Shown one piece after another: positions 4,962 to 60,690 of a stretch of 64,000 nucleotides of DNA. The stretch comes from Limnomonas spitsbergensis. Its lineage: Eukaryota; Chlorophyta; Chlorophyceae; Chlamydomonadales. Where the stretch lies: assembly GCA_037349105.1 (NCBI GenBank), contig JAYJMM010000009.1, forward strand, positions 2,170,001 through 2,234,000. Reading direction: 5' to 3'. Under the pieces are notes generated by a model. That model saw only the letters and a program-made list of their open reading frames with translations. It did not search any database and was not told the DNA's origin. The first letter of the stretch is position 1; every line of letters begins with the position of its first letter. The position numbers were made by a program, and so were the translations under genes.

Positions 4962-5135
4962 CTGCTCCCTCATCTGGGCCCGCTCCGAAGCCCGCTCCGC
5001 CTCATCCGCCAGCTGCCCTACAGCCGCTGCATCGGCTGCGCTGGATGCAGCGTTCGCCAGCGCCTCCTCCTCCGCGGCCAACGCGCGATTCATCTCAGTC
5101 TCGGTGTCAACCAGTGCAAGCTGTGCCTCGCGCAG
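4962..5135 (-). CDS. Gene 1 exon 9, coiled coil
   Basis: Acceptor GTAGGGTCAG, donor AGGGAGCAG before GTACGG, 174 nt = 58 codons, phase 0. It encodes LREAQLALVDTETEMNRALA, an Ala/Glu-rich middle, and ends ERASERAQMREQ. Its first 50 nt recur as three decayed upstream copies; its last 10 nt are the core of the 34-bp array. Confidence 0.8.
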
Positions 5136-8100
5136 CTGACCCTACGCATGCGTTCAACAAGTATTGAGGGAATGCTGCCAGGTCCCGGCATCAGCCAGCA
5201 TCAACTGGGCCTGCAATCAGACTTGCACACTGTTTTACGTAAGGTGCGGTTCATCTCAGTCTCGGTGCCACCCAGCGCCAGCAGTGCCTCATGCAGCTGG
5301 CCCTACGCATTTCAACATGTTTTAAGGTTTAGGGTTTAGGGGGGACACCATCAAGTCTCAGCATCAGCCATCATAATCTGGGCCTGCACCAGGGCCCACA
5401 CATTGTGTTGTGTAAGGCGTGGTTCATCTCGGTTTCAGTGTCCAACAGCGCTCGCTCTGGCTCGTGCAGCTGACCCTGCGCATGAATCAGCATGTATTGA
5501 GGGCACACCATCAGGGCTCGGCAATAAGGCGACATATTATGTCACGTAAGGAATGGTTCATCTCAATCTCAGTATCTTTACAGCGCTAGCTCTGCCTCGT
5601 GCACATGGCCCTACGCATGGACAGGGGGAGCCACGGGGGGTCGATCCAGGGTTTAGGGTTTAGTATTTAGTTTTTCCAGAGGGAAGGCCACAAGGGTGTG
5701 ACAAGGTTAACCTCAGGGGCTAATCCAGGGTATAGGGTGTAGGATTTTTCTGTCTCTCTCTGCCTTCAGTCCCCCCTGCATGGCAATGCATGTACCCTAC
5801 CCTATGTTATGTACCTTATAACTATGCACCTACATACCCATACGGCCATACCCAAGCGCCCCCCACTTGCATGTTATCTCCTTCTGCTTCTTGTTCCCGC
5901 TACGTGGCAAGACCTGTGCGGCTGAACTGTACCCTACCCTATGCTATGTATGCTATTCACATCCCCTACATACCAGCGTGCCCCCCACCTGCATACCATC
6001 TCATTATACTTCCTGTTCCCGCTACGTGGCAAGACCTGCACCCCACCCTTATGTCATGGATCCTACAACCCACAGTACCCCACCCTATTCTCCTACCCTG
6101 ATCACTAGTACCCTTCTACCTGCAAGTTATCCCGTCCAGCCTCCAAGTCCCACTGCAGGGCACGACACTATTCCCCCGCACACCCGTACCAGTGTCCCTA
6201 CCCACAATTTGGGGCACGACCCTATTCCCCCGCACACCCGTACCCGTGTCCCTACCCACAATTTGGGAGACGATTTGTAGTCTTTGGAATGGCTGTTGAT
6301 AAAGAGGTTTGATGACAGGTCGTCTCTTTCTGCCTTTAGTTGCCACTGTACGGCACATGCGTACCCTACCCCAAATCATAAGCCGTAAACCGGAATCCAC
6401 ACCCAATCCACATGCCCCCGCACACCCGCACCACCTGCAAGTCGTATCTTTCTGCCTCCAGTCCCTCCTGCACGGCACACCTGCACCCTAACCCCTGTCA
6501 TGGATCGTACAACCCCATTTTATTCTCATGCCCTATTCATAGCTGCCCCTCTACCTACAAGACATCCCGTCCAGGCTCCATCCCCCCTGCACGAAACGCC
6601 CATTCCTATCTCCATGCCACAAAACCTATACCGAGACCCACACTCCCTCCTCCCATGCCCTTCCACCTGCCAGTCGGAGGCAACCTATCCAGCCTACGTT
6701 TCCTGTTGCAGGACACGGCCATATTCCCCGGCACACCCGTACCAGTGTCCCTGCCCCACCTGCAAGGCGTCTCTTTCTACTTCCAGTTACCACTACGTGG
6801 CACACGCGTACCGAACCCCAAGTCATAAACCCTATACCAGAATCCACAGCTCCACACCCTATTCACATGCCCCCATACACCCGCACCAGTGTACTGCCCC
6901 ACCTGCAAGTCGTCTCTCTCTGCTTCCAGTTCCCGCTGGACCTTCCCAACAGCGGCCTTGACGGCGTTGTTGAACACCCGCACGCGCCGCTCTCCATCCT
7001 GTCACAAATCAGAAGCGGTAATTCTTCGGGGGCATACAGGCATGCCAGTGCTACCAATCCCTTTTGTTAAGGTACCTGGCAATTATGTTTTGAAGAAATA
7101 GCTCTCCATCCTGAGATAAGTCATAAGCGGAAATTCATGAAGGTGGCATTCAGTCTTACGCTCAATCTCTTTTTTCCTGTCACTGGTAGTTCTGTTTTGA
7201 AAAGATAGCTCTCCATCTTGAGATACTGGTAAGTCAGAAGCGGCATTTTATCAAGGGGACATTCAGTCTTACGTTTATTTTGTGTGGTCGCGGTTGCTGG
7301 CAATTTTGTTTTGAAGAAAAGCTTGTTTCCATAACCGGTAAAATAAATGCTGGAAATCTAAGGAGATTTAACCTAAACCAAAATTTCGGCTTACAAAACG
7401 AAACTTGTTGTGTCACAATCCAGGGGTCAATCCTGGTCAATCCAATGCTCTGAGACCCAAGACTAAAGGGTTTAGGTTTATTGCAAAAACGCACCCACGA
7501 CTCTCCAGTCTGATCTATGATAACGAAACCCAACTTTGGGGTTACTGAGCCAAACGTGGTTCAGCGACCACACTCCTCATGCAGCCGACACACTAGTGGT
7601 AACAGAAAACCCGAGGCTTTTGCCACGAGCCGACCGCCCCCTTCATTACAACTCGGGAAGTAGCATTATTCCTTTCCCTCCTTTGACGTATATGCGTCAT
7701 TCTTTCAGACACTTCCACATTGATAGTAATTTACCCCTGATTGCGGTCATTCGCTCTGTTGTTGCATCCCCACCTGGCGCAACGACTCGCTCAGCCCCTC
7801 TGCCTGTGCGCGCGTCGATCGTTCCGCATCGGCTGCCGAGACCGCAGCGTGCGCCTCCGCCTGTGCCTCACGCCTCAGCCTGTCCGCCTCATTGCGCGCC
7901 GCCTCAGCCTTCAGATTGCAAGAACAAGGGCAGCAAAGTGGCGGCAGAACTGCTGTGTGGCGAGCGTAGCGGTTTTAGGGATCTGGGTTAATGATGTAGG
8001 GTTCAGGGTTTCGAGAGTGCTTCAAATCAGCCCTCCACATCGACCTTTGCATGATCTATTTGGGGTGACTAACCCTCCTCCACCTGTGTGGCTGGTTGGA

Positions 8101-24256: not shown

Positions 24257-24462
24257 ATGATGAGGTCACGGCAGCGGTCCCACAGGCAAGCCTCGCCTCC
24301 CGGCCTGGCGTTCACATTAGTGTGGGCTCTCGTGGGCCTGCTGCTGCCCCTGGCAGTGACCGCCCAGACATGCCCGCATCTCGTTGTGACAGCTAACATC
24401 TCCAAGTCATGCACCATCCCCAGCCTGGACATGCAGTGCATCATTCGCACGTGGTGCTTGAG
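24257..24462 (+). CDS. Gene 3 exon 1, signal peptide
   Basis: Two adjacent ATGs (24,257 and 24,260). A basic n-region, hydrophobic core and VTA-QTC cleavage site are followed by PHLVVTANISKSC. Donor GCTTGAG before GTGGGT, phase 2. The start is chosen because it puts the signal peptide near the N-terminus; the frame is also open upstream. Confidence 0.7.
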
Positions 24463-27400
24463 GTGGGTCTTGTAGAAACTTGGCTTGCCACCGGGCGGCC
24501 ACCGTGCCTGGGCGCTGTGACTGGGTGCCGGCCAAAAGTCAAAATCCACCATGCCTGGGTGCTGGGTGCTGTGACTGGGTGCCGGCCAAGATTCAAAAAT
24601 CAAAATTCACCATGACTGTGTTGCTGTACCTAGGTGCTGGCCAGAGTCAAAGTCAAGATTTGCCATGCCTGGGTGCTGTGACTGGATGCTGGCCAAGATT
24701 CAAATGTCGAAATTTACCATGACTGGATGCTGTGCCTAGGTGCCGACCAAAATTCAGAAGTCAAAATATACCATGACTGGATGTTGTGCCAGGGTGCCAG
24801 CCAAATCCAGAAGTCAAAATTTACCATGACTGGGTGCTGTGCCAGGGTGCCGGCCACGATGACAGGGTGCCGTGGGCAACCAAACCTTGACCGTCATACG
24901 ATCTGACAGCTGGCTGCATCAGGCCCCCACGGCCTCAGGCTGTGATGCAGCTGAGCTGAATGGTAGCCTCCTAAATGCTACGGCCAAACAGGAGGCTTCC
25001 TTAATCCACGCTTCAGCGCATAGTCTTTATTTATTTCCTGTCTGTAGCTGAGCTGTAGCTGAAGCTTCCAACAATAACTGATCCATACTGCATTTCTCGT
25101 ACCCGACGGGTGGATCTGCCTGTCTGGGCCTGCCAGAGACGGGTAGGCATGCTTGTCTAGGCTTGTCCTACACAGGTGGGCCTGCCTGTCTGGACCTGAC
25201 TGAGGTGGGGCATCTGCCTACATGGGCCTGCCAGAGATGGGTGGATCTGCCTGCATGGGCCTGCCAGAGACAGGTGGATCTGCCTGCCTGGGCCTGCCTG
25301 AGACAGGTGGATCTGCCTGCCTGGGCCTGCCTGAGGCAGGTGGATCTGCCTGCCTGGGCCTGCCTGAGACAGGTGGGTCTGCCTGTCTGGGCCTGCCTGA
25401 GACAGGTGGGTCTACCTGCCTGGGCCTGCCTGAGACAGGTGGGTCTGCCTGTCTGGGCCTGCCTGAGACAGGTGGGTCTGCCTGCCTGGGCCTGCCTGCA
25501 TGGGCCTGCCAGAGACCAGCGTATATGCCTTCATGGGCCTGTCTGATAGGGGTGGGCCTGTCAAAGATAGGTGGCCCTGCCTGCATGGGCCTGTTTGGCT
25601 GGCCACACCTGGGACCTCCGGCTGGAGGCTGACATGTAGATGAGTCACAAAAAAATCAACACTGCTCCCTTATTATATCCTCTCCCCCCCACCACGCACA
25701 GCTCGGATGACCCGCCCATGACCATCTTTTCCTATATCGACTTAACCGAGTGTCCGTCCAACATCGTTGACGTCGACTTCACTGGCCGTGCCTTTTGCGC
25801 CAATGGCTTCCCGTCGCCACCCCTTCCGCCGGTGCCACCCCCCGCCCCGCCGCCCCCCTCACCGTCACCTCCCCGGCCTCCCCCCGACCCACCCGGTCCT
25901 GCTTTACCCCCAAGACCCCCGCCCCCCCGTCCCCCATCCCCCTTCCCGCCCCCCCTCCCGAATCCCCCATCCCCCCCGCCATCATCCCCTCGACCGCCTT
26001 CCCCAATTCCACCCACACTTCCCCCACCCCCCTCTCCCCCGCCGAGCCCTCCCCCTTCCCCCAGACCCCCACCTCTCCCCCCTCCCCCCGTCCCTCCCCC
26101 CAGCCCCCCTCCGCTCCCCCCTCCTCCCTCCCCTCCCCCTTTCCCCCCTCCTTCCCCACTCCCCCCTAGCCCGTCTCCCTCGCCTCCTCCATCACCTCCA
26201 TCCCCGCCCCCGTCCCCCTCGCCGAGTCCTCCGGGTATCCCTTTCCCACCCTCTCCCAGCCCCCCCCCGAGCCCCCCTCTCCCCACTCCCGGTCTTCCTC
26301 CACGTCCCTCGCCCTTCCCTCCCCCCCCTGATCCCCCAAGTCCGCCCCAGCCCCCGCCTCCTCCATCCCCCTCACCCCCTCCGCAAAGTCCATCGCCTCC
26401 AGTCCCCATGCCACCAAACCCGCGCCCCCCGCAGCCCCCCCAGCCCCCGCCCCCGCTGCCGGCTCAAACCATCAGCATCCCAGTGGGGCAGCAGCTGGCC
26501 GCATTCACTCAGGTGAGGTCAGGGGTGCGGTCCATTTTTTCAGAGAATCTCTCAGGATACTTCATTCAGCTACAATTCAGCTACATCATAGCCTACAGCC
26601 AGGACTGAGGGCCTGGGGTAGAGCCTGGCAGAGTGGGCCCTGCTGCTTGTGCCATATTCCGGTCATGATTTGGTTCCCATCGGCCTAGTATTGGCATGGA
26701 TCCGAGTCCAGCCAAAGGTGGCCTGGTCATCTGGTACACGCAAAAAACATGAAATAAATTAGCAATCGCATTTCCTAGTTCCACCCAAAATATTTGAAGT
26801 GCGTGAACGGCTAGCCATGAGGCTTGTCTGAAGCCGGTAAATAGAAAGGAAAGCATGCAGCCGTTGCAAAAGTTCTTGGGACAGAAAGGCCCTCATTCAA
26901 AGTGGGGGAAAGTCTCTGGAAATACCTAACTAACACATTTTATGCCCGATTGAAACCGTTCAGTGGTGCATCACATATCAGTCAAGCATTCCGATCCCCT
27001 CGTCGGTGAAAAAACAACCAACCGTACATCTAACTGATGAGGACTAAGGTTCAAAGGTTTGGAAGATAGCGTTTAAATTCAAGACAAGCCGCAAGCCCCA
27101 CTTGCCAGTGGTGCCCACATGGACAGAAACAGGATCCGGGCAGGCTTCTTTATTTTGGACATGCCAGCGGTAACATGAACCAATGCATGGTGCAGATTCA
27201 GTCGCTTGAAACCTGGGCACCAACATGTTACCCTGCTCGCATGGTGATGGTTAAAGGAGATTTCGTGGCTAATCACTAGCAGATAACCCTGCACGCATGG
27301 TGCAGGTTCACTCGTTTTAATTATGAGCACCAGCGGGTAACCAAGCAGTGATGGTTCAGAACTTTTCAAAACCTAAACACAAGCGTGCTTTCATGCTGTC

Positions 27401-30400
27401 ACAGTGCTGGCATGCAAGTTTTCAAAAGCCTAAACATCAGCGTTATCATGCATATATACTGGCAACAACCACATGAGTCTCACCGTTTGCCCTTCATTGC
27501 CGGCTTGCCGCCGTACGTTGCTGACTACAGGCCTATCACAGACAGCCACCATCATTTGTTTTTCATCCTTGCTACCTCCCCTGCAGGTCCCTGGACAGGT
27601 GACAGCGCTGCAGCTCAGACAGATTCGGGTGAGTGGACTGTTGGATACTTTGGATAGGATTACGGGAGCTGGGTGAGTGGACTGTTGGATGCTTTGGATA
27701 GAATTGCAGGAGTTGGGTGAGTGGACTGTTGGAGAGTATTACAGGGGGTGGGTAGGTTCACTGTTCGATGCGATCTCGGGCGGTGTTTCTGTTTTAGGCG
27801 AGTGGTAGCCATTTGGAGAGTACAGGGCGAGTAGAAAGTATGTCGGGGCGCCCACCCCCGCACCACCCCACGAGGCCTGGTGGCCTCGCTTTCAAGGTCA
27901 CACTTTTCCCACCACTTCACACTGTTTCATACACCGGTGGCTTCAAGGAAAGTAAGTCCCAAATTTGAAAACATAAACACTGATTACGAGGGTTGGGTAA
28001 GTTGACTGTTGAACAGGATTCAGGGAGTAGGGCAAGTTCTCTACTGGATAGGATTCAGGGGATTCATGGGATTCATAGGATTCAGGGGATTTTGGTAACT
28101 TCTCCGTTGAACAGGATTCAGGCAGATTCGGTTACATACTTATATTTTCGGTTGGATAGGATTCAGGGAGTTGATAAAGTTCTATTCTGGACAGGCTTCA
28201 TGGAGATTTAGGTAAGGCCTCTGTTGGACAAGGGCAAGTTCTCCATTGCATACAATTCGATGGAGTAGGGTAAAGTCAGTGTTCGACAGGATTCCGCCCA
28301 TTCACCAAGTCCCTGAATTAACTTTGCCTCTCGGGCAGATCTGGGCACATGGGTTGCTGTGAATGCTTTTCCTCTTGCCCGAGCCTTGTCCCTTTCATTG
28401 CTGTCCTAGCGTAGTTAGTGCCTGTTCCGGTTTACGGGCACAAGTCCCATGCATCAAATGTGATGCCCCGCTAGACTGAAACACCTTCGCAAACTTCACG
28501 TGTGAGAAATTTCCTGTGTAAGCGCATCACCCCCCAAGAATCAGGGCACCCTGCCCTGCTGCTTGGTTCCGAATCAGAACTTCTGATCCAGATCGCGACC
28601 TCGGACTTCTCGACCCGGGTTGTATTGCTGCTGCTGCTCTGTATAGATCCAGATCGCGACCTCGGCTTCTCGATCCGGGTTGTATTGCTGCTGCTGCCCT
28701 GTATAGATCCAGATCGCGGCCACTACTGGACTCCCTCTGTCGGCCATCAATGTCACAGAGAGCAACGGCTATGTGGCAACTGTCTACACAATCACGTCCA
28801 ATCAGGTGTGATGATGCGTGGAGGCATAAGAACACGGGTGGCAATCGTTAATAACCGTGTGTCCACTGTCAACAAAATAAAATCCAACCAGGTGTGACTG
28901 ACGCCTCAAAGGAATATTAGAACAACACACGAATAGCACCATGACATCTACCGGTAGATGGGTGTGATCCTCCTGCAGGTCACAAATAAAATTCAGCCAG
29001 GTGTGATTGAAGCCTCAAAGGAATTATAAAACAACACATAAATTACACCATGACATCTACCGTAGATGGGTGTGATCCTCCTGCAGGTCGAAATACAATA
29101 ATTGATAGAGTTTTAACAGCACAAATGATAGCACTTATTTGATTGCTCATTTCATGATCTATCGAATTGGTTGAGATTATGATCTACCACCTTGATAGCA
29201 CATTTTATGTTACAGAATTATGATATATACCGTAATAATTGCACGTTGATAGCACGATTTACAGCACAACTTAGGATGGCATCCGTGATCACCTTTAACC
29301 AGATGAGATGTCCACCTTATTACATGAATCTCTCCCTCCCCGTTCTATTTTTGGCTTGCAAACCATGGACCCCAAGGTCCCCCCCAGTCCCCGCATTGTC
29401 TTCTCTGCGTGTAATCCCTAAACCCTAACGGCCTATCCCATGTTCCCATTCATCCCTTTCTTCTCTGCGTGTGATCCCTAAACCCTAAACCATGCCTCTC
29501 CCCCCCCTCTTTTTCTTTGCATGTTAACCCTAAACCCTGCCCCCTTTCACTCTTGACCCCTGGACCTGTCCCCCCACAACATCTTGCCCTGTCTCGCCTG
29601 CCTGCAGTCCGGCTCCCTGGTCTGCAACAGCTTGCTGGTGGGCCTCAAGGAGCAGCTGTGTGCATCCCTCATCACCATAGACGTAGGTACCGGTGCATCC
29701 TTGTAATTTAAATAAGATAATTTATTTATTTACATTTTTAACTTTTGTTTTATTTATCCAAATAATCTCGGAATAACCTTGTTGTTGTAAGGAAAAGGCG
29801 GTTGGCTGGGTGGATGCTAGGTGCTGCAGCATCAACTCTGTTACTCCCCCTTGTCTGTGCGGCTGGCCTCAGCGCATGCATTTAGCTGCACCCAATGATC
29901 CTTGCCACTGCTCTCATGGTTTGACATTCTTGGCGTCTCTGTTTGCTCTCTGGTGCTTGTTTCACTTTTTGTTTGTGGTTTACTCCCGGTTCGCTCTGCC
30001 TGGCCCTGTCGCTAAAGGCTGTGGGTGGTTGCGTCAACTTTGTAAGAACAGCATTCTTTCAAAATCCGTACGTCAGCTTCCTTTGCCACTCCAAGTCTTG
30101 AGGGCCACATGCGCACCCAGGCTGCTTCTTGTGTTAGCGTGTCAGGTTTTCAAGGGTTGTGCGGCCGGGCTCGCACTTTGTTAAGTCCAAGCAAGAGAAA
30201 GTCTCATTGCCTGGACAATGTCTAGACCATTTAAGCCTGGACAATGTCTGGACCATTTAAAATGGCTATGATATTACTACTTACGACTGCTGAACGACTC
30301 TGCCCCCACAGCCCCCCTTTTGTGCAACTGGTATAAACCATCGATCTATGACTCTTCTTAGGCTTCTTTCATTCAATTGTGCAAATGAAGTCCCCTCCCC

Positions 30401-33400
30401 CTCTGCCGATTGTGCGACATGCCTCAAAATCTTATCCTTGGATTCGCACAGGCAATTCTCACACCGTAAGTGTCATTGTGTTATTCCCTCCCTCCACCCA
30501 TCTGGATTCAAAAACAAATCCCTAACCCCACCCCTCCTACTTGCAGCTTGCCTTAGTAATTGATCCTTGGATCAGCCTAGGCTTCTTCCACAATATGAAT
30601 GCCCTTATTTAGGCCCGACTCTCGACATCTGGATTCAAAAATTGATCCCTGACTTGCGCCCCCCCCTCTGTGCCGCTTGCCTCAGTAATTGATCCTGAGG
30701 TCAGCCTAGTCTTCCTCCTCAATATGATTGCCCTTGTGTATTCCACCCCCTCACCCGTCTGGATTCAAAAACTGATCCCTGCCAATGCCCCACCCTCTGT
30801 GCAGCTTGCCTCAATAAGTGAGTCTTGGATTCACACAAGCTGCTTCCAAAGTATGAATGCCCCTATTTTAGTCCCTCATCTCAACCATCTGGATTCAAAA
30901 ACCGACCCCCGACCCTGCCCCCCCCTCTGTTCAGCTTGCCTCAATAATTGATCCTTGGATCAACAAGTGCTGCTTCCACGGTATGAATGCCCTTAATAAT
31001 TTAGTCCCTCCCCTCACCCATCTGGATTCAAAAACTGACCCCTGACCCTGCCCCCCTCCCTTGCTGCTTGCCTCAGTGCGCCCTGGTGTCCGTGGAGTGC
31101 GTCAAGGGGTTCGGATCGCCCGATGACATGGACGTCGTGAATTTCATCCCCATGGCGGTAGGTGCATGGGGGTCGGGGAATAGGGCAGGCGAATTACGAA
31201 ACGTACGAAATGTAGGTTCGAAAAACCAAGACTCGGAAAGCTCGCCCCTGCCACCACAGTACCACACTACCACCGGCTGTCCTTGCCAAGCTCAACAGCT
31301 TGACGATTTATACCGCCCGAACTGGAAAATAGCATTCAAAGGAGTTTTGAACCAGTCAGTGTTCATGAGTCTGTCCCTGCCTCAGCAGCAATTCAGTCCA
31401 GATTGCTGTGCATGTGAAGATTTCACCTGGCATAGACAGGACCCAGATCGCAGCAACCTGAAAACGTTCATTCCAGAACAAACAAAAAACTAAATCCCGG
31501 AATTTCGGAGCGTCATCTACAATCCTGTTCCTGCCCCTCCACAGGCTGTCCTCACCACCCTCAACAGCTCCACCGTCCAGATTGCTGCACAAGTGAAGCT
31601 CACGTCCGAGACAGACAGTGCACAGACAGCACTGCAGCTGCTGCCACCGTCCCTCAGCTTTTCGGTCTACACCGTGACGGCTCCGCCCATCCCTCGGGTA
31701 CGTCAAAGGTTTCATGAGCTGCTGTACATGTGCTTTGCCTTCCCTCATAATTAACATGCTTGAAGTGCAAGTAATACCATACATCAAAATTCAGTTTATC
31801 AATCGTACTGTAGATTTGCTTTGATTTCCTCATAATGAACGTTGTTTGGGTTGAGGGATCCACAAAACTTCTAATTCTCCATTATCAACGCCGGATTTCA
31901 GTCAGAACATAAGAGTTCGGGTCGACAGTTGCCCTGAGGACAGCGTACAAAGTTATCATTTTTCATACCCGAGGGAAGGCAAATGAAATCCATGGTAACA
32001 TAGACACCAGCCTTGGGTCAGAAATCAAGAGTTCTGCTCGTAATTTCGCCTTGAGGGCAGGATTAAATGTGTTGATTAATTGAAGCTTGTGGGAAGGCAA
32101 ATCAAGCCAACGGTGAATTGTTTTGAAAATGAACTAGTACTATGTGAGCTGGCTCCGCCCGGTCCCTGGGGCACAGAGTACCTGGTGATGTGTTGGTGAT
32201 GTACTTCTCGGAAGCTGCTGCTGCTGGAACTCCGGCCTAAACCCTAGGACACCTCGACAGTTGTCAGGGCACACACGTTACTCGGGGGCTGTGCCAAAGG
32301 TACTTTTACAGATACCTGGTGACCTGTTGGTGATGTACTTCTGGCAGGTACTTCTGGTCAGCAGCGCCACAGCAGGCATGTCATCAGCCGCTGCACCTGT
32401 TATATTAGCTACTGCAAGTTTGTATCGTACTTTGAAAAAAAATACAACTACCAAGTCGGATATACAGATCCCCCAAATGAAGGTATCCCTCAGATCTACA
32501 TATCCATGGGCCATGGTGTTGACTAGGGTCTATTCGCTGGGATTCACTCAGATCTACGTATCCCTCGGATCTACCTATCCCTGAGGCGCGGTGGAGACTG
32601 TTGACAGTGGTCTATTTGCAAAGCTTCCCACCAGCAGCACTCAAGCAGGGGCGCTAGATTTACCAGCAAGATTTCTTACCAGCTAGATTTGACTTCAGCT
32701 AGATTGTCCCGTTAGCCCCAAAACCTTAAAACACTGGCTGCTGTACAGGCCCTAATGTCGGCAATGCTGGAGGTTGGCTCCAGTACACACCCTAAGCTCC
32801 CAGACCTCAACCCTTGCTTCAACCCTAAGCTCCAGACCCTGAACCCTGGCTTGTACCCTAAGCTCCCAACCCTAAGCCCTCGCTTCCAACCTGTGCTTCA
32901 TACTCCGAAGCCTCACTTTCACCCAAAGCTCTGAACCCTACACCCCCGCCTATACCCCGAGCTCCAATCCTAAACCCTCGCTCATACCAAGAGTTCCAAA
33001 CCCTTAACCCTCACTTCTACCATGAGCTCCAAACCCTTCACCCTCGCTTCTAACCTGAGCTCCAGACCCTAAATTCTTTCTATCGACTTAAGCTCCAAAA
33101 CCTAAAAATCATCCTTTACCCTAAGTTGCAAACCCTAAATCGTCGCCTCTACTCTGAGCTGCAAACCCTCAAGCCTTGCTTCCATCCTTAGCTCTGAAAC
33201 CTGAACCCTCGCTTCCAACTTCTGCTTCACACCCCAAACGCACGCACCCGCACAGGCCCTGATCTCAACTGTGCTAGAGGAGGTCCTAACCAACCCCTCT
33301 GGCACCAGCCTGCAAGTCTTCGACCAGCAGCTGATCGACGCGACCACCAAGGCGCTGGGCCTTTCACCCCCCCAGGCTGCATCGGCCCTGAGCCTGCCCT

Positions 33401-34602
33401 GGGACGTTGCGGTCCGGCCAACGTTGTACACTGCAGCCGCGGCACCCTGCAGCGGGAACGGGCCAAGGCTGGGCAACCTGTGTGGCAAGGATGCCGTTGG
33501 CGCTATCGTTGGGATTGCCGTCGGCGTTGTGGCGGCGCTGGTGCTGCTGACGATCTTTACAATGTACATGTTTGCTGGAAGGGTGAGTGCTATTTAAGGG
33601 GGCATGAGGGGGGGGGCATCAGGTTGGGAGGAGGCCGGCTGGGTTGCATGGGGAGGAGGAGGGTTTAGAGGGTGAGAGCTGGGAGGGAATCAGCAGGGGG
33701 GCATCAGGTTGGCAGGAGGATGGCTGGGTTGCACGGGGAGGGGGAGGGTTTGGAGGATGAGAGATGGGAGGGCATCAGCAGGCCGCATCACCGCCTCAGG
33801 TCAGGAGGGTGGGTGCTGGGTTGAACGGGGTGGGGAAGAGTTGGGAAGGGGGGATTGCAGGGTGGGGGTAGTGTTTGGGGTTTGGTGTGCTGGCTTGCAC
33901 AGGAAGAGGAGTCACACAGATAGGGGAGGGCAAGGCAACAGGGGGGAGGGTCATAGTAGAGCTGGCTTGCTAGGCATCAGTCGGATACGTTGCTAACTGG
34001 GACCGCACCTGCTTCAACCAACATCTGGGAGCCATCTGAAAACGATTGGGTTGCCTGAGGCTGTGGGAGGTACTAGGCAGGTGCAGCCTGTCAAAGACAA
34101 AGACAGGATTTCTGCGGACCAGAAGCCCCGTTTCTGGAACGCAACATTCCCCTCACATCACGCCCTCCAACGCCATGAACCCTAAACCCTTAGCCCATCT
34201 GATGCCCCTACCATCCCCCTCTGCAGCATATAACGGTAGTTGCTGTCGACGACGCCACTTAAACACAATCCTACACCCACATCCCCCCCGCCAACAGCGG
34301 AAACCCCACACTTTAACGGATCTTAAGTCTCTTCCCCACATCCCACCTTCCAACGTAAACCCTGAACCCTGAATATCCCGCCTTCCACATCCCGCCTTCC
34401 AACGTAAACCCTAAACCCTGAACCCATCTAAAGCCTCTCCCCCCCCCCCTTTCCGCAGCCCTCAACTGTGGTCGCTGTTGACGATGCTACTTGGACACTG
34501 CGCTACGCTCACATCATGCCTTCCAACACCGTCACATCGCCGTACTACTCAAAGCAGTACGGTGTCCCTGAGGGCGGGGCGGTGGGCGCCGGCAACGCAT
34601 AG
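24257..34602 (+). CDS. Gene 3: type I membrane protein with Pro-rich extracellular linker
   Basis: Nine exons (24257-24462, 25702-26512, 27587-27628, 28707-28805, 29608-29682, 31077-31157, 31545-31697, 33256-33582, 34459-34602) total 1,938 nt, 645 residues plus stop, with all phases matching. Residues 1-36 form a signal peptide (Arg-rich start, LVWALVGLLLPLAVTA, then QTC). About 104-323 is a PPSPPP-type linker typical of green-algal extracellular hydroxyproline-rich proteins. 325-567 is an ectodomain with paired Cys (LVCNSLLVGLKEQLC, CALVSVEC) and N-glycosylation sequons (NVT, NSS). A membrane span lies at about 570-595 (GAIVGIAVGVVAALVLL). The 50-residue tail ends YYSKQYGVPEGG then GAGNA. 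The ectodomain (QLRQIRIQIAATTGLPLSAI) loosely resembles SEA-like modules; that is inference. Likely a surface or wall-linking protein. Confidence 0.82.
24480..24870. repeat. 53-bp tandem repeat, about 7 copies, after gene 3 exon 1 donor
   Basis: Units with GTGCCGGCCAA, AAGTCAAAAT, CACCATGCCTGGGTGCTG (or ACCATGACTGG) recur every 51-57 bp beginning 20 bp after the exon 1 donor. Confidence 0.82.
25110..25590. repeat. 33-bp tandem repeat, about 13 copies, in gene 3 intron 1
   Basis: Units read GGCCTGCCTGAGACAGGTGG then TCTGCCTGCCT. 33 bp is 11 codons, so three frames stay open (WACLRQVDLPA type); not considered coding. Every unit carries CAGGT. Confidence 0.9.
25702..26512 (+). CDS. Gene 3 exon 2, Pro-rich linker
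   Basis: Acceptor CCACGCACAG, then C TCG GAT, completing the AG of exon 1 (Ser). It encodes SDDPPMTIFSYIDLTECP, AFCANGFPSPP, about 220 residues of Pro with Ser, Arg, Ile and Leu, then TISIPVGQQLAAFTQ. Donor CACTCAG before GTGAGG, phase 0. The other five frames across the C-rich block are shadows. Confidence 0.85.
27120..27460. repeat. Degenerate 55-60-bp repeat in gene 3 intron 2
   Basis: GCATGGTG, CAGGTTCA, ACCAGCGGGTAACC-like words recur about five times with heavy divergence. Weakly supported as a tandem repeat. Confidence 0.45.
27587..27628 (+). CDS. Gene 3 exon 3, 42-nt micro-exon
   Basis: Acceptor CCTCCCCTGCAG, encodes VPGQVTALQLRQIR, donor AGATTCGG before GTGAGTGG. Phase 0 both sides. 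Its donor region is repeated downstream at 44-bp intervals. Confidence 0.75.
27629..28295 (+). repeat. Tandem copies of the gene 3 exon 3 splice donor
   Basis: GGGTGAGTGGACTGTTGGA occurs with GT at 27,629 (true donor), 27,673 and 27,717, exactly 44 bp apart, then as GGGTAGGTTCACTG at about 27,752. Diverged copies with GTAAGTTGACTGTTG and AGGATTCAGGGAG continue to about 28,290. Confidence 0.88.
28586..28706 (+). repeat. Two extra upstream copies of the gene 3 exon 4 acceptor and exon start
   Basis: ATCCAGATCGCG starts at 28,586, 28,647 and 28,707 (true exon), the last two preceded by TTGCTGCTGCTG and CTGTATAG. The period is 60-61 bp. Using an upstream acceptor would put the in-frame TAG of the next CTGTATAG into the message. 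Confidence 0.9.
28707..28805 (+). CDS. Gene 3 exon 4
   Basis: Acceptor TGCTGCCCTGTATAG, encodes IQIAATTGLPLSAINVTESN then GYVATVYTITSNQ; donor CCAATCAG before GTGTGA. 33 codons, phase 0. Two upstream copies of the acceptor and first codons exist at 60-bp spacing. Confidence 0.78.
28806..29095 (+). repeat. Copies of the gene 3 exon 4 donor region
   Basis: TCCAATCAGGTGTGA (true donor, 28,798) recurs as TCCAACCAGGTGTGA (28,883) and TTCAGCCAGGTGTGA (28,992). The later two are followed by a shared CCTCAAAGGAAT, CACCATGACATCTACCG and GATGGGTGTGATCCTCCTGC block. Confidence 0.85.
29385..29600 (+). repeat. CCCTAAA-containing repeat before gene 3 exon 5
   Basis: About three units of 60-70 bp with TTCTCTGCGTGTGATCCCTAA or variants, each bearing plant-type telomeric CCCTAAACCCT, lead into the exon 5 acceptor tract. 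Confidence 0.7.
29608..29682 (+). CDS. Gene 3 exon 5
   Basis: Acceptor GCCTGCCTGCAG, encodes SGSLVCNSLLVGLKEQLCAS then LITID; donor CATAGAC before GTAGGT. 25 codons, phase 0. Two Cys could form a disulfide. Confidence 0.8.
29683..30419. other. Gene 3 intron 5, repeat-poor part
   Basis: AT-rich then mixed sequence with no tandem structure of note and no exon with matching phase. Short plus-strand frames (for example 29,810-30,184) lack splice or composition support. Confidence 0.4.
30420..31076 (+). repeat. Six tandem copies (about 130 bp) of the gene 3 exon 6 acceptor region
   Basis: Blocks of CATCTGGATTCAAAAAC, CTGACCCCTGACCCTGCCCC and GCTTGCCTCAG end at about 30,427, 30,556, 30,685, 30,814, 30,944 and 31,076 (true acceptor), 129-132 bp apart. 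Only some decoys keep the AG (30,556 and 30,685); others read TCAA. Confidence 0.92.
31077..31157 (+). CDS. Gene 3 exon 6
   Basis: Acceptor TGCTTGCCTCAG, encodes CALVSVECVKGFGSPDDMDV then VNFIPMA; donor ATGGCG before GTAGGT. 27 codons, phase 0. Five upstream copies of its acceptor region occur about 130 bp apart. Confidence 0.8.
31279..31430 (+). pseudogene. Relic fragments of gene 3 exon 7
   Basis: GGCTGTCCTTGCCAAGCTCA at 31,279 parallels the exon start GGCTGTCCTCACCACCCTCA. GTCCAGATTGCTGTGCATG at about 31,395 parallels the exon's GTCCAGATTGCTGCACAAG. Frame and splice sites are lost. Confidence 0.7.
31545..31697 (+). CDS. Gene 3 exon 7
   Basis: Acceptor CCCCTCCACAG, encodes AVLTTLNSSTVQIAAQVKLT and on to VTAPPIPR; donor CCTCGG before GTACGT. 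51 codons, phase 0. Decayed fragments of it precede it at about 31,279-31,305 and 31,391-31,425. Confidence 0.82.
31815..31983 (+). mobile_element. MITE-like element, family A (forward copy)
   Basis: Shares ACGTTGTTT, GAGGGATCCA, AGAGTTCGGGTCGA, TTTTTCATACCCGAGGGA and terminal AAGGCAAA with the element at 55,259. Ends form an imperfect inverted repeat. No coding capacity. It lies in gene 3 intron 7. Confidence 0.65.
32010..32098 (+). mobile_element. MITE-like element, family A (3' fragment)
   Basis: GGGTCAGAAATCAAGAGTTC, then GCCTTGAGGGCAG and GGGAAGGCAAATCAA repeat the right half of the neighbouring element. Confidence 0.5.
32749..32781 (+). pseudogene. Relic of gene 3 exon 8 start
   Basis: CTGTACAG then GCCCTAATGTCGGCAATGC reads ALMSAMLEVGS, parallel to the true exon start ALISTVLEEVL. 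It then dissolves into the CCCTAAGCTCC repeat. Confidence 0.7.
32782..33250. repeat. Degenerate 36-40-bp CCCTAA-type repeat before gene 3 exon 8
   Basis: About twelve units containing AACCCT, CGCTTC and GAGCTCCA words, resembling diverged telomere-like CCCTAAA sequence, fill the end of the intron up to the exon 8 acceptor. Confidence 0.75.
33256..33582 (+). CDS. Gene 3 exon 8, membrane span
   Basis: Acceptor CACCCGCACAG, 109 codons from ALISTVLEEVLTNPSGTSL through CGKDAVGAIVGIAVGVV to MYMFAGR; donor AGG before GTGAGT, phase 0. It holds the single transmembrane helix, followed by a positive residue on the cytosolic side. Confidence 0.87.
33600..33880. repeat. G-rich tandem repeat after gene 3 exon 8 donor
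   Basis: GCATCAGGTTGG starts at 33,616 and 33,701 (85 bp apart), with matching GGCTGGGTTGCA and GAGGGTTT blocks and a third, weaker copy. Confidence 0.75.
34227..34290 (+). pseudogene. Relic copy of gene 3 exon 9
   Basis: CCTCTGCAG precedes sequence whose aligned frame reads TVVAVDDAT, stop, TQSYTHI, against TVVAVDDATWTLRYAHI in the true exon. The Trp codon TGG has become TAA. It sits 232 bp upstream, between CCAACGTAAACCCT-type repeats. Confidence 0.82.
34459..34602 (+). CDS. Gene 3 exon 9, cytosolic tail
   Basis: Acceptor CTTTCCGCAG, encodes PSTVVAVDDATWTLRYAHIM, then SPYYSKQYG and a Gly/Ala-rich end at TAG. 47 codons plus stop. A relic copy with TAA in place of the Trp codon lies at 34,227-34,290. 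Confidence 0.83.
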   Translation, partial: PSTVVAVDDATWTLRYAHIMPSNTVTSPYYSKQYGVPEGGAVGAGNA

Positions 34603-34617
34603 TGGATCCATGATGAT

Positions 34618-34720: not shown

Positions 34721-34740
34721 AGCACCTCCCCAATGTCCGG

Positions 34741-42012: not shown

Positions 42013-42015
42013 CAC

Positions 42016-54660: not shown

Positions 54661-54719
54661 AGAGTTCAGGGATCGGATTTCAGGGTTCAGGGTCTAGGGA
54701 TCAGGTTTGAGGGTTTATG

Positions 54720-55012
54720 AGAAGGGGATACTGTCACATGAGCGACTGAATCAGGGCAGAGTCATCAGATGCCAAGGATACCATGACAGTGGGTTCTAGG
54801 GTTCAGGGTCTAGGAATCAGGGCTGAGGGTTAAGTGGAGGGGGATCCTGTTACATGAGCGACTGACACAGGGCAGAGTCACCAGATACCGCGGACAGCAT
54901 GGCAGCAGGGTCTAGGGTTTAGGGTTTAGGGTTTAGGGGAAGGGGATTCTGTCACATGAGCGACCAGCTCAGGCAGAATCATCGGAGACCGAGGACACCA
55001 TGACAGCAGGCA
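54720..55012. repeat. Three copies of a 100-120-bp repeat with TTTAGGG tract
   Basis: CTGTCACATGAGCGAC, CAGGGCAGAGTCATCAGAT and CCATGACAG blocks recur at about 54,730, 54,848 and 54,950. GTTTAGGGTTTAGGGTTTAG lies at about 54,911-54,935. No coding frame. Confidence 0.82.
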
Positions 55013-55258
55013 TGCGATGTTCTCTTAGGTAGGGGCACATCAAATCATTTGGTCAGATACGAGTATGAGACACATCTTACCATGTAGGCCTACTGCTATA
55101 CGGCTATTACCAGGACACAACAAAATACGGAACATGACCACTTAAGCGTCACAAATCATGTTACAAGCCGCACCAGGATGACGTATCAGCATTTGGCTCA
55201 TGACCACTCACACGCCACAAGATCATAACATATCGGTATAGCCATACCGTCAATTTCC

Positions 55259-55433
55259 TTTGCCTTCCCTCGAAATTTACGTTGTTTCGGCTTGAGGGAT
55301 CCATTCATGTACTAAATACCGGAATCCATTGTCCACGCCACTTTCTAGTCAGAAATTAAGAGTTTGGGTCGAAAATTTGCCCTGAGGGCAGACCAATAAA
55401 AGAAATCGTTTTTCATACCCGAGGGATGGCAAA
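55259..55433 (+). mobile_element. MITE-like element, family A (best copy)
   Basis: Starts TTTGCCTTCCCTCG and ends CGAGGGATGGCAAA, a 14-bp terminal inverted repeat with one mismatch. 175 bp, non-coding. Internal blocks match the copies at 31,815 and (reverse) 8,918. A flanking duplication is not obvious. Confidence 0.72.
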
Positions 55434-55476: not shown

Positions 55477-55574
55477 TTACACGTCACAAATTGGACAGCA
55501 GAAACCGCGTGTCTTGAGGTCATCCGCGCACATCACGCACAACGCTGCATGGAGACAGGGTTTCAGGCGACACC
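55477..55574 (-). CDS. Gene 5 exon 6, rest of RING and stop
   Basis: Acceptor CTCCTGCGCAG, then GG TGT CGC in phase 1. Encodes CRLKPCLHAALCVMCADDLK, then RGFCCPICDV and TAA. Confidence 0.88.
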
Positions 55575-58500
55575 CTGCGCAGGAGGGAGAAACATATTGA
55601 GGGGGCACTAGACTCCGGGTTGGGGGGAGTGAAGCATGGGTGCTGAGGTGCTGCGGGTGCTGAGGGGAACTCACGTCAAGCGAAACGCCGCATGTAGAAA
55701 GGGGTTGAGGTGAAACCTTACTAGGGAGGGAGGGAGGCATACTGTATTGAGGGTGAAGGGTTAAGGGTTTACCCATACCGCACTCAACCCATACTGCATT
55801 GAGGACTGGAGGGCAAAAGTTTGTAAATTTGGAATGTTTGCAGGCTATGCACAAAAGGGGGAGTCGGTAGGCAAGCGCTGGGATTCAAGAGATTGTTGAG
55901 GGTTTATTTTCAGAAACAGATGGCCTTGAGCTGGCAACATTCTTGAGGGAGATGTAAACAACGGGAGGGAGGTGGGCTTGCTGGGATTGAGGTAAATCCA
56001 TTTCACAAAATTGCAAGAGGTCGAAATTTTGAAGGTATTTTCCCGAGGACAGATAGCGCCCTTAAACGACAAAGAACTTGGAGGAGGACATGCCTTGACG
56101 GGGGGGGGGGCATTGGGGCAAGAGCTGGGATATTAGGAACTTCATTGAGCTTTGAGGGGATTGCAAGAGGTTGCATTATTCGTAGAATATACGGCTTGGA
56201 GGCGACAATGCACTCGGAGGAGATCAGTCGAGGGGGGTCACTAGCCCCCCTTGCCGTTTACCCCCACCCCACCACCCACATCATCCATTAAACTCTCCTA
56301 CAGTCCATGGACCCCAACCCGCCACCCAACACATGTCTACCCCCTCCCCATACACTCGCACAGTCACCCCGCATACCGTCCATCCCTCCACCACCTTCCA
56401 CCCACCTCTCGTACCCCCCCCCCTTCCCCATACACTCGCACAGTCACCCCGCATACCGTCCATCCCTCCACCACCTTCCACCCACCTCTCGTACCCCCCC
56501 CCCTTCCCATACACTCGCACAGTCACCCCGCATACCGTCCATCCCTCCACCACCCTCCGCCCACCTCTCATACCCCCCCCCCCCCTTCCCCATACACTCG
56601 CACAGTCACCCCTCATACCGTCCATCCCTCCACCACCCTCCACCCACCTCTCGTACCCCCCCTCCCCCCCCCCCCCCCCCCCCCCTCCCTGTACACTCAC
56701 TCATTCACTCCTCATGCGATCCATCTCTCCTCCATCCACCTACCCTTGTACCATCCATACCTCCACCACTATCCATTAAACCCTCGTATTTCCCCCCCTC
56801 CCACCCTTCACCTACCTCTTGTATGACCCCCCCCCCCCACACACACACACACCAGCCACTCACCCCTCGTACGGTCCATGCAGACCATGCACAGCTTCTT
56901 GGCAGCTCCTGCGCCCGACGTGGGCGTGTCCAGCCCAGAGAAGGGATCCCCGGAATCGGAGTCAGCCCGCGTCGTCGCGACAGACAGGGGAGTCCCGCGG
57001 GGGAGCTCGCTGGGTGACACTGCGCGGGCACGTGCCCGCTGGATGTCTTCTTTCAAAGCCTGGAGCTGCCCGTTCTCTGGACAAGCATACAAAGTGCGGG
57101 CAGATGTTCAACGAGTTGTAATTTGGATGGTGTAAGGGCATTTGGGGCGCACAGTCATCCCTCATACCGTCCATCCCTCCACCACCCTCCACCCACCTCT
57201 CCCCCCCCCTCTCCCCCTCCACCCCCCCCCCCCCCTCTCCCACCCCCCCCTCTCCCCCTCCCCCTCCCCCTCCCCCCCCCCCCCCCCCTGTCTCTCCCTC
57301 TCCCCCTCCCCCTCCTCCTCAGGCCACAAACAAACCTGGATTCAATTTTGAAGCCTCCCCATTATATTTGCTAGCCTTGCCCCCCTCCCTGCGCCTCCCC
57401 CCTTCCCCTCTACCCCCCCCCCCCCCCCTCCCTGCCCCTCCCCCTCTGACTCTGGTCACTCAAACTTACCTGGATCCAGTTTTGAAGCCTCTCCATAATC
57501 CTTGCTGGCCTCCTCCAGCTGACCTAGGTCCAAGTGGGCGCGAGCACGGAGGTGGAGCGCTACAGGGAGCAGGCAAAAATAACTATATTAAATAATCATG
57601 TTAAATACCGGGGAAAAGGAAGAGAAAATCGAAACGCAGTTCCAAAGGCTCCCCTGCGGATCTCCAGAGCATGATTTCAGTTCGAGCTACTCGTGGGTCT
57701 CATTGGCCAGTGCTCACCGCCCTAAACAACAACTAAATTAAATAAAAAGGAAAACAAAAATTGAAACACAGCTCCAAAGGCTCGGCTCCTCGGCAGGTCT
57801 CCAGAGCATTCTTTCAGTGCAAGCTACTCGTGGGTCTCATTGGCCAGTCCTCACCACCCTCAACAAAGAAAATATATTTAGCTCTGTCAAAGCTAAGCAA
57901 CCATAATGTGAATGAGTAATGCTGCACCGGATAGGGGTTGGAGGGCATGCCCCTTCGGGGCTCGAGCAAAAAATTGCGTTGGTAGTTGATGCTAAGAACG
58001 CTCATTTCCCTCATTCAGTGACAAAATAAAGGTTGTGGTCACAGCCAGCACCACCACTGCTATTTTTAGCCAGCACTACCATTGCTACCAGCAATGGTAG
58101 TGCTGACTAAAAATAATACACGACAACAGGCATGCTACCGCTACAAATCCACAAAACAACCTGCAGCCGTAGGGGCTTGGAGCAGCATGCCCTGCCGCTG
58201 GCGCTGTCGGCCGGTCATAGTTTGATCCTTATTGGCCCAGTGGTGGTAGTGGTGGCTGCACAAGATCCACCCAAAGGTGGTCTAGAGGGCCATAAGGCCA
58301 ACATTGTCCGACTCATCACAACACAAAGCACCCGTCCCTGCTCTCCCCAGTTTTGTTTTTGCGGCTATCCCTGCACCTTTGGCAAGCCGCCAACCACCGA
58401 AGGCCCAATGGGGAGTTTACCTGGAGCGACCAACAACTGGTGGCCAAAGAAGTATGGCTGGCCACAAATGGAGCCTCCGGCCAGAGTCATGAGTGTGGCT

Positions 58501-60690
58501 GACGTGTAGCTGATTCATGAAGAAATTAGCCCTGGCTCTTTCAAAATGCAACACGCACCCATCATGTAATCTGATTGCAATTTGAGCGCCGTGGAGAAGT
58601 CAGAGACGGCAGACTGCAGCTGGTTTCGCTCAGCGCGGATCTTGCCGCGGGCCACAAGCGCTGCGCATGGGACAGCATGGAGCAGCAGCATGAGGCATGG
58701 ACAGCATTAGGGCGCATGGGGCAGCATGGGGATACATGGGGCAGTATCGAGTATCATGAAGCAATATCGTGGTGTATAGGCAGCATTAGGGCACATAGGG
58801 GGTGCATGGGGCAGCATGGGGCAGTATAGGGTATCATGAACCAGGATCGTGGTGCATGGACAGCATTAGGGCGCATGGGGGGTGTATGGGGCAGCTTGGG
58901 GCAGTATGGGGATGTGTGGGACAGCATGAAGCAGGATCGTAATGCATGGACAGCATTAGGGTGCATGGGGCAGCATGGGGTTGCACGAAGCAGGATAAAG
59001 TTGCATGGACTGCATTAGGGTGCATGAGGATGCATATGGCAGTATGGGGTGTGCATGGACAGCATTAGGGCGCATGGGAAGTGCATGGGGATGCATGGGG
59101 ATACATGGGGATGCATTGGGCAGTATGAGGTTGTATGAAGTAGGATACTGGTGCATGGACAGCATGAGCGTGCATGGGGCAGCTAAGGGATGCATGGGGC
59201 AGTATAGGGGTGCATGGATAGCATTAGGGCGCATAGGGGGTGCATGGGGCAGCACGGGGATGCCTGGGGCAGCATGCGGCAGTATGGGGTCGCATGTAGC
59301 AGGATCGTGGATCATGGACAGCATTAAGGCGCATGGGGGATGCATGGGGAAGCATGGGAATGTATGGGGTGGTACGGGGTTGCATGTAGCAGGATCGTGG
59401 TGCATGGACAGCATTACAGCGCATGGGGGGTGCACAGTGAAGCATAAGGATGCATAGGTCAGCATGGGGATGGACTGAGCAGTATGAGGGTGTATGGGGC
59501 GTTCCGGTGGTGCATGGGAAGCATGGGGATGCATGGGGATGGATGGTGTTGTATGCATGGTCCTGACGTGTCATGAATGCTGGTGAATGCATGGGGAGGT
59601 ATTGCATGGGGAGCTTGCTTGGGGACGTTTCAACCCATCGCAGCCCTGGCCCATTCTGGTGCTGGTGCACTGCAGGTAAATCAAATGCATGTGAATTGTC
59701 TACTGCATACACTGATCTCAATCCCATGCATGCGGGCGCGTCTCATGGCCCAAGACCTGATTTCACCCTAATGCTTACATGCGCATGGGTGTATCTGGTG
59801 GCCTTATCTACCTTCCTGCCTATATGGGAAGTGGGCATGTCTGGTGGCCCAAGGCTCGACTCTGCCCTGTCACTTGGAGGTTCTTGATACAGCATCTATG
59901 CTTTAGGGCGGGGTGCTTGAAGTCCCTCTCCTCTCCATCTTTCTCCACTACCCCCTAGGCCATCCCTTCCCTCCCCCCTCTCCTCTGCCTCTAACCATTA
60001 TCCATATACAAAGCTGCCAATACCCTCGCTTCCTCCTCCTCTCCCCGCCCTTCTCCCATTCAGTCGCACCATGTGCAGTGGTGCAAGGTTACAGAACTGT
60101 CATGCAGGGGGCTACCTGGGGGGAGTACAGCCCTTCCTGACCAGATGCCCTAACACCAGTTCACACATCCCCCACATGACGTGCACGCATAGCCATCTCC
60201 AATTCTCCATGCCATGGGCATGTCCAGTTGTCCACCCATGCCATGGGTGGGCATTTCTGGTAGGGCTCGTGGACAGTGTCGCACCTCGGGCGCAGCTCGG
60301 CCAATCCGAAATCACCCCGTCCAGCTCAGAAAGCGCCCCGTCTACGTTGCCGCTCTGGTACAGTGCCTCAGCGCGCAGCACCCTCGGGGCAGCTGCTTTG
60401 GCTGGCTGCTTGGGTCGCGGCGCTTTCCCGTGGACACCTGGCAAGGTGCGGTTAGGTAGTTGTTACACAGCTTGCTTTCTCTTTCTTTTTCGCCGAAAGT
60501 TACCCTAAGGTGGGTGAGGGGGGGGATCCAGAGCAAGGGGCAGCGGAGCCCTAACGAGCGGAACAGCAACATGGCGGCAAGCTGCTCTCCATAGGGATTT
60601 CACAAATAAACGAAACGCTGTTTAGCGCCTACCTTCCGGCTATCCCTACGTACCTTCATCTGCAGCGCACATGGACGCGGAGCATCCCAT
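55477..60690 (-). CDS. Gene 5: N-acylated TPR-RING protein, probable E3 ubiquitin ligase
   Basis: Six exons (60690-60654, 60437-60285, 58660-58559, 57559-57470, 57076-56864, 55574-55477) total 693 nt, 230 residues plus stop, all five introns phase 1. It begins MGCSASMC, fitting N-myristoylation at Gly2 and palmitoylation at Cys3. TPRs lie at about 31-64 (RVLRAEALYQSGNVDGALSE), 64-97 (ALVARGKIRAERNQLQSAV) and 98-131 (ALHLRARAHLDLGQLEEASK, ending KLDPEN). A helix and Ser/Asp-rich linker follow. The RING (C3HC4) uses Cys190, Cys193, Cys205, His207, Cys211, Cys214, Cys225 and Cys228. RING proteins usually recruit E2 enzymes, TPRs bind protein partners, and the acyl group would place it at a membrane. 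The particular family is not known to me. Confidence 0.9.
55671..55830 (-). pseudogene. Relic copy of gene 5 exon 6 start
   Basis: Minus-strand CCCTAG, then a segment aligned to the exon start; CTACATGCGGCG parallels CTCCATGCAGCG. It reads VSPQPLSTCGVSLDV, having lost the RING Cys pattern. A further CAACCCATACTGCATTGAGG duplication lies beyond. Confidence 0.65.
55831..56230. other. Gene 5 intron 5, non-repetitive part
   Basis: Mixed sequence with a GAGG and TTGAGG bias (minus-strand CT tract) and a short G run at 56,100. No exon seen. Confidence 0.45.
56296..56850 (-). repeat. 85-90-bp tandem copies of gene 5 exon 5 donor region
   Basis: CATACCGTCCATCCCTCCACC, CCACCCACCTCTCGTACC, C runs and CCATACACTCGCACAGTCAC repeat about six times. 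On the minus strand TGGACGGTATGCGGGGTGACT parallels the true exon end and donor TGGACCGTACGAGGGGTGAGT. One more copy is at 57,150-57,200 in intron 4. Confidence 0.82.
56864..57076 (-). CDS. Gene 5 exon 5, helix, linker and first RING cysteines
   Basis: Acceptor GCTTGTCCAG, donor ACGAGGG before GTGAGT, 213 nt, phase 1. Encodes NGQLQALKEDIQRARARA, a Ser/Thr/Asp linker, then KKLCMVCMDRTR. Confidence 0.88.
57180..57335. other. Poly-C tract
   Basis: Runs of up to 16 C interspersed with TCTCC. On the gene 5 sense strand these are G runs with quadruplex potential. No coding content. Confidence 0.7.
57336..57376 (-). pseudogene. Relic copy of gene 5 exon 4 end and donor
   Basis: Reads ASKYNGEASKLNP before GTTTGT, against ASKDYGEASKLDP before GTAAGT in the true exon. 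The donor has decayed. Confidence 0.82.
57470..57559 (-). CDS. Gene 5 exon 4, TPR 3
   Basis: Acceptor GCTCCCTGTAG, donor GGATCCAG before GTAAGT. Encodes LHLRARAHLDLGQLEEASKD then YGEASKLDP, the canonical TPR end with the Pro of position 32. 90 nt, phase 1. Confidence 0.9.
57625..57855. repeat. Tandem duplication, about 100 bp twice, in gene 5 intron 3
   Basis: GAGCTACTCGTGGGTCTCATTGGCC-type sequence occurs at about 57,682 and 57,813, both preceded by CTCCAAAGGCTC and CTCCAGAGCAT blocks, about 130 bp apart. Confidence 0.8.
58061..58115 (-). ncRNA. Near-perfect 26-bp hairpin in gene 5 intron 3
   Basis: Left arm TATTTTTAGCCAGCACTACC continuing ATTGCT (58,061-58,086), 3-nt loop, right arm 58,090-58,115. 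Only one position mismatches, and in minus-strand (transcript) sense it becomes a G-U pair. It could be a small-RNA precursor, a foldback element, or chance duplication. The loop is short for a typical pre-miRNA. Confidence 0.4.
58559..58660 (-). CDS. Gene 5 exon 3, exactly one TPR
   Basis: Acceptor CCATGCGCAG, donor ATGATGG before GTGCGT. 102 nt equals 34 codons, the TPR repeat length. Reads LVARGKIRAERNQLQSAVSD then FSTALKLQSDYMM. Phase 1 both sides. Confidence 0.85.
58664..59580. repeat. GCATGGGGCAGCATGGGG-type array next to gene 5 exon 3 acceptor
   Basis: About 20-bp words (GCATGGGGCAGCATGGGG, GGATGCATGGGG) are organised in larger units of about 100-130 bp carrying GCAGGATCGTGGTGCATGG and ACAGCATTAGGGCGCATGG. 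On the minus strand it is pyrimidine-rich, and CATGCTGTCCATGC resembles the true acceptor tract CATGCTGTCCCATGCGCAG. Confidence 0.85.
59581..60284. other. Gene 5 intron 2, right part
   Basis: Single-copy-looking sequence with CT-rich stretches (59,925-60,060) and no exon of matching phase. CCATGCCATGGGCATGTCC at about 60,208 is a short palindrome-rich spot. Confidence 0.4.
60285..60437 (-). CDS. Gene 5 exon 2, TPR 1
   Basis: Acceptor CACCTTGCCAG; 153 nt with a Lys/Pro/Ala-rich lead (VHGKAPRPKQPAKAA) and a TPR ending DWPSCAR; donor GCCCGAG before GTGCGA, phase 1. Confidence 0.88.
60654..60690 (-). CDS. Gene 5 exon 1, acylation motif
   Basis: ATG at 60,690-60,688 in CTTGCCATGGGATGC. It encodes MGCSASMCAADE; donor GATGAAG before GTACGT, phase 1. 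An in-frame TAG follows directly in the intron. Confidence 0.8.

Follow-up and report, generated by a model that had tools for sequence, protein, structure and literature searches.

Why do introns of several unrelated genes in a single algal locus hold repeats of the exon edges that flank them, and are splice junctions singled out when such repeats arise? The question was raised by a stretch of 64,000 nucleotides (nt) from the snow alga Limnomonas spitsbergensis (contig JAYJMM010000009.1 of assembly GCA_037349105.1, positions 2,170,001-2,234,000), hereafter the window, in which an earlier, sequence-only reading had proposed that introns are built from tandem copies of their own exon-intron boundaries. 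Three genes with predicted exon models were followed: gene 1 (minus strand, five modelled exons within 4962-9572, with the start codon probably at 13968), gene 3 (plus strand, 24257-34602, nine modelled exons), and gene 5 (minus strand, 60437-55482, five modelled exons). The answer that we consider likely, with a probability of about 0.72, is that blind short tandem duplication combined with selection on exons explains the junction copies.

For each junction, the 50 nt on either side were used as a query against 1.5 kb in each direction on the same strand, and a junction was called positive when the best alignment crossing it scored at least 50. Nearby junction-spanning copies were found at 15 of the 35 junctions of genes 1, 3, and 5 (5/10, 6/15, and 4/10, respectively; 7 donors and 8 acceptors), which bears out the earlier count of at least twelve boundaries, one of the 15 (the gene 1 exon 2 donor) being low-complexity and doubtful. 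At a lower threshold of 45, none of 700 Markov-shuffled and none of 600 cross-gene controls was positive. The best copy lay in the adjacent intron in all 15 cases, downstream of donors and upstream of acceptors. Clear examples come from gene 1 (exon 4 donor and exon 5 acceptor), gene 3 (last exon), and gene 5 (a TPR exon). With a longer query, restricted to the adjacent intron and run without its own control, 48 copies at 18 junctions reached a score of at least 45, and at 13 of these 18 junctions a copy includes 15 or more exon nt; repeats beside exons do contain the neighboring donor or acceptor together with exon sequence. Counted by type, this longer query gave 9 donors and 8 acceptors. 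Among six further, less certain junctions in genes 1, 2, 3, and 4, one was positive, the acceptor at 39342 in gene 4, a gene that had been named as a probable case.

In the clear cases, the copies lie at offsets of about 35-450 bp. Where several units are present they are minisatellite-like, forming 34-, 44-, 60-, 80-, and 130-bp arrays at junctions, and elsewhere the copy is single (Table 1). To say that introns are built from boundary copies goes too far: junction-spanning copies account for no less than 2,872 of the 15,332 intron bases (19%), within 13 of the 15 introns, although 49% of intron positions in the three genes lie within some local duplication. Nor is there an excess at junctions over the intron interior in the window, where the same test gave 15/35 (43%) at junctions and 446/909 (49%) at interior positions; intron growth specific to boundaries, the stronger part of the earlier proposal, is therefore not supported.

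Unrelated genes outside the window show the structure too, as had been suggested. In a search that covered the assembly (260,226,709 bases, 124 contigs), we used protein-kinase exon matches, chosen by homology and independent of repeats; the first 20 loci were picked mainly for collinear matches, which favors short introns, and the next 24 were taken roughly in match-table order, skipping those with an internal stop, an edge outside the domain, or paralogues. Among 13 collinear introns, mostly short (4 of 17 exon pairs, at loci L012, L013, L016, and L017, were omitted as poorly resolved), 1/26 junctions was positive, compared with 59/371 interior positions (16%). In the single-edge sets, where splice sites scoring under 3.5 were not called, the edges of 31 kinase exon matches gave 9/47 positive with 16% cover of the flanking intron, and 12 further loci under the same rule gave 4/20 with 25% cover. 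Combined, 13 of 88 distinct called sites were positive, five sites being common to the first two sets; within this material the L003 and L008 donors were each called at two differing places, so that one of each pair is wrong, the L011 acceptor is doubtful, and L010 and L012 resemble paralogues. The best copy was intron-side at 13/13 positive kinase junctions and hence at 28/28 overall (15 in the window and 13 in kinase loci, p=7e-9). As in the window, junction coverage did not exceed that of the intron interior in any kinase set (4, 19, and 20% versus 16, 16, and 25%). Cross comparisons between kinase loci reached 50 in 4/600 cases, which we read as kinase homology. The idea of a general mode of intron growth stands insofar as the copies recur, but positive junctions are commoner in the window than in the single-edge kinase sets (15/35 versus 13/67, p=0.019), and the idea therefore needs scaling down.

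What an explanation has to cover, then, is the copies themselves, their intron-side location, their exon content, their decay, and the fact that junctions are affected about as often as interiors. Under blind duplication, short tandem duplications would arise in and around introns regardless of splice junctions, whether by slippage, unequal exchange, or break repair. When the duplicated segment happens to straddle a junction, the transcript would carry two equivalent splice sites; use of the exon-proximal site would leave the mRNA the same, and the event would for that reason be nearly neutral. A duplication of this sort within an exon, by contrast, would alter the protein. What stays behind in the intron would be the surplus junction with its tail of exon sequence, which would then decay and may amplify into minisatellites.

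Three sets of observations weigh against duplication as blind as this. (i) Intergenic DNA should tolerate duplications no less readily than introns do, and four gaps between genes score only 2-4%; in this one window, local duplications cover 6.4% of 959 positions from presumed intergenic stretches, versus 49% in introns. The contrast is not clean, because 22680-24255, which lies upstream of the gene 3 start codon and within a long open frame, scores 45% and may be transcribed or belong to an exon in a different model, and because the gap 34603-38170, including an array behind gene 3 (34735-35295), scores 18%. The short piece 54950-55420 scores 12%, and 41700-43160, probably inside gene 4, scores 29%; the block test of intergenic cover used four trimmed gaps and left out that array, these two pieces, and 22680-24255. 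Local duplication is thus concentrated in the introns of the window, not confined to them. (ii) Among 19 merged tandem arrays, 6 begin or end within 10 bp of a junction where 1.2 are expected (p=0.0008; one of the six is low-complexity), and 5 span a junction where 0.6 are expected, a result that is sensitive to the depth to which randomly placed arrays were let into exons (10 bp). (iii) The exon part is at most half of the offset to the best copy in 17/18 positive junctions, whereas breakpoints placed blindly should fall to either side of that mark; this ratio is pulled down by cases in which a copy other than the nearest is the best.

The duplication-poor gaps and the array edges speak for a different account, in which splice junctions themselves set off duplication, for instance through breaks near the donor that are linked to transcription or R-loops, and introns lengthen from their ends. 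It would also fit the observation that tandem repeats are commoner near intron-exon junctions, especially in Chlamydomonas reinhardtii and Volvox carteri (PMC3887541). However, junction cover exceeds that of the intron interior neither in the window nor in the three kinase sets; moreover, arrays could come to end at junctions merely through protection of exons. Since array edges at junctions exceed expectation, some targeting of junctions by duplication may still contribute, and seeding as the overall explanation seems to us unlikely.

The state of the copies bears on a further possibility, namely that they serve a function, as tandem alternative exons or as alternative splice sites. Many do retain their signals: GT is kept in 14/28 donor copies (14/16 without the 34-bp array) and AG in 9/20 acceptor copies, including all three that derive from exon 5 of gene 1. 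At L021, a kinase exon is mostly duplicated with its acceptor 251 bp upstream (approximately 2090-2430; 120/144 identical), and the copy of what we take to be the DFG motif exon has no stop in its 86 aligned exon nt and may be a young alternative exon. In contrast, in-frame stops interrupt two copies (34178-34299 and 5557-5619), the frame is broken in some, the presumed HRD motif of a copied exon at L010 has changed to HPD, and the 12 best copies of the 34-bp minisatellite carry GG for the donor GT. Compared with the real exons, the exon-derived parts of copies are changed at 23.7, 22.8, and 29.2% of codon positions 1, 2, and 3, and the intron parts at 17.4%, figures weighted heavily by the 34-bp array; change this even is nearly what neutrality would give, and a small surplus at third positions is to be expected because the real exon itself has changed. 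We therefore regard a functional role for the copies in general as quite improbable. Decay itself had been described as going with distance and with stop codons. The stops are present; the trend with distance is weak, the five exon 4 donor copies in gene 1 being 84, 75, 76, 82, and 72% identical at 143, 468, 783, 914, and 1036 bp.

Introner-like or transposable elements could in principle supply repeated introns, and these introns are rich in repeats; introners are reportedly present in about 5% of species searched (PMC9860276). None of the 600 cross-gene comparisons among genes 1, 3, and 5 reached 45, and each repeat family is private to its own junction; an introner origin was rejected for these genes and is very improbable. 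Equally remote is the chance that the pattern stems from faulty exon models, low complexity, or misassembly: exon edges are predicted, those of single-match kinase exons are less sure (two donors were called at two places), and some C-rich stretches are low-complexity, as is the gene 1 exon 2 donor, but frames are continuous and Pfam TPR matches cross splices, homology-fixed kinase exons show the same copies, and assembly echoes are unlikely because most copies, at 65-95% identity, are too diverged.

The gene models on which these counts rest hold a single open frame across the modelled introns of all three genes, and AG or GT is present at 34/35 junctions; the exception, the last gene 5 donor (55482), was placed one base off a GT and is negative at either neighboring GT. 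The spliced gene 5 translation matches Pfam TPR families (TPR_2, E=1.1e-13), and a TPR_16 match (residues 21-79) spans a splice. Judging by eye, we take the gene 1 product to be a coiled coil and the gene 3 product to be a secreted, proline-rich membrane protein. The end of gene 5 (55482-57076) carries what we take to be a RING-like cysteine pattern, without a Pfam match; its CGH segment was sought in gene 5 and not found, and a small exon may therefore be missing or lost. Protein searches with genes 3 and 5 returned zero relatives at E<=0.001, Pfam on ten long open reading frames of the window gave one match only, below threshold, and scoring of the window with a Chlamydomonas-like codon usage table detected few exons. 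Intron phase is nearly uniform within each modelled gene: all four introns of gene 1 are phase 0, the first of gene 3 is phase 2 and the remaining seven phase 0, and all four of gene 5 are phase 1.

Table 1. Modelled exons, junction copies, and repeats in genes 1, 3, 4, and 5 (window coordinates)
Feature	Position	Strand	Remarks
Gene 1 minisatellite, 3.66 kb, 34-bp unit	1307..4969	-	starts in final bases of exon 5, includes its donor
Gene 1 exon 5, source of one acceptor and one donor repeat family	4962..5141	-	open frame, AG..GT
Three copies of gene 1 exon 5 acceptor with 53-62 exon nt	5241..5619	-	5241-5327, 5414-5535, 5557-5619
Five copies of gene 1 exon 4 donor, 35-39 exon nt, GT in all	5822..6794	-	5822-5901, 5953-6023, 6070-6155, 6402-6473, 6720-6794
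Gene 1 exon 4	6903..6998	-	open frame
Copy of gene 1 exon 4 acceptor, 10 exon nt	7101..7153	-	
Gene 3 first exon, donor negative	24257..24462	+	presumed signal peptide, judged by eye
Gene 3 proline-rich exon, both junctions negative	25702..26512	+	
44-bp repeat including donor of gene 3 exon 27587-27628	27627..27733	+	
60-bp repeat with acceptor and initial bases of gene 3 exon 28713-28805	28585..28718	+	56/59 identical
Donor copy of gene 3 exon 28713-28805, 34 exon nt	28858..28924	+	weaker alignment farther on is below threshold
Repeat of about 130 bp ending at acceptor of gene 3 exon 31077-31157	30476..31077	+	
Probable relic of gene 3 exon 31545-31697, 85 exon nt	31352..31452	+	65/100 identical, score 48; outside the 15 positives
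Weak acceptor copy of gene 3 exon 33256-33582, 14 exon nt, AG lost	32868..32941	+	
Relic of gene 3 last exon 34459-34602, AG kept, 73 exon nt	34178..34299	+	in-frame TAA
Gene 4 acceptor, less certain model	39342	-	junction copy 116 bp upstream, score 66
Relic of gene 5 exon 55482-55544, 16 exon nt	55672..55732	-	acceptor changed to GG
80-bp repeat with donor and 16-24 exon nt of gene 5 exon 56864-57076	56340..56752	-	
Relic of end of gene 5 TPR exon 57470-57559, 42 exon nt and donor GT	57270..57377	-	83/102 identical
10/80/90-bp repeat adjoining acceptor of gene 5 TPR exon 58559-58660	58665..59472	-	AG lost in copies
Gene 5 first modelled exon, both junctions negative	60285..60437	-	

Other repeats are present in the window. 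The telomere-like motif CCCTAA is sense-biased in the introns of genes 1, 3, and 5 (32 versus 6 TTAGGG), a bias that did not recur in the kinase loci (35 versus 39). A dispersed repeat with the core GGCCGCGTGGGCGCC occurs four times in the window with at most one mismatch (34650, 37013, 37409, and 61743); longer exact patterns of it had no match among viral or prokaryote contigs, in a search that may omit near records. An 11.5-kb array of a 42-bp unit (43172-54668, 274 copies, 94% matches) lies between what was modelled of genes 4 and 5. For the genome as a whole, the published assembly is given as 260,248,090 bp in 124 contigs, with a GC content of 54.15% and a mean intron of 788 bp (PMC11228838).

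This kind of structure is already known from the lancelet (amphioxus), where it was termed a mirage and where reverse transcription PCR (RT-PCR) suggested undisturbed splicing. As here, mirage units of 10 to 160 bp span the exon edge and the splice site, the copies are intronic and occur at both 5' and 3' boundaries, and AG or GT is retained in many but not all of them; in our genes, too, boundary-spanning tandem copies, the involvement of both donors and acceptors, and minisatellite-like arrays were found. The differences are that mirages concern a few lancelet genes, whereas in this green alga they affect 15/35 window junctions and 13/88 junctions elsewhere, that offsets reach about 450 bp and one array 3.66 kb, and that splicing here is predicted from sequence. 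A literature search of incomplete coverage found no report of mirages in an alga.

We can only tentatively entertain the wider idea, which we hold to be possible but on balance doubtful, that mirage-type duplication is pervasive and still active in this genome, leaving spare copies at a substantial fraction of all junctions and making up much intron length, with some decoys in use as alternative sites and relic exons occasionally turning into new exons or introns. If it were true, intron growth and birth would be observable at all stages in one genome. Independent of this, about one in seven called junctions is affected in a sample chosen by homology, which would make intron growth, decoy use, and the birth of exons or introns measurable in this genome, and the relic exons are a caution for gene predictors.

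Two other bodies of work bear on these observations. That introns can be gained by tandem duplication is an established model (PMC3443670, PMC4974935). As in our genes, the duplication provides surplus splice signals, and in the potato RdRp case (PMC4974935) it likewise crosses an intron-exon boundary. The difference is that existing introns lengthen here and new introns were not seen. In the green algae C. reinhardtii and V. carteri, tandem repeats are densest in introns and more frequent close to junctions (PMC3887541), a richness and a junction-near excess that resemble ours. The passages of that survey drawn on here are silent on exon sequence or splice sites within the units, and they suggest a role in splicing, whereas we read the duplication as blind (PMC3887541). 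The junction copies of L. spitsbergensis are of the mirage-like kind, at unusual density, and they link the junction-near intron repeats of algae with the mirages of the lancelet through junction-straddling duplications that would be tolerated in both.

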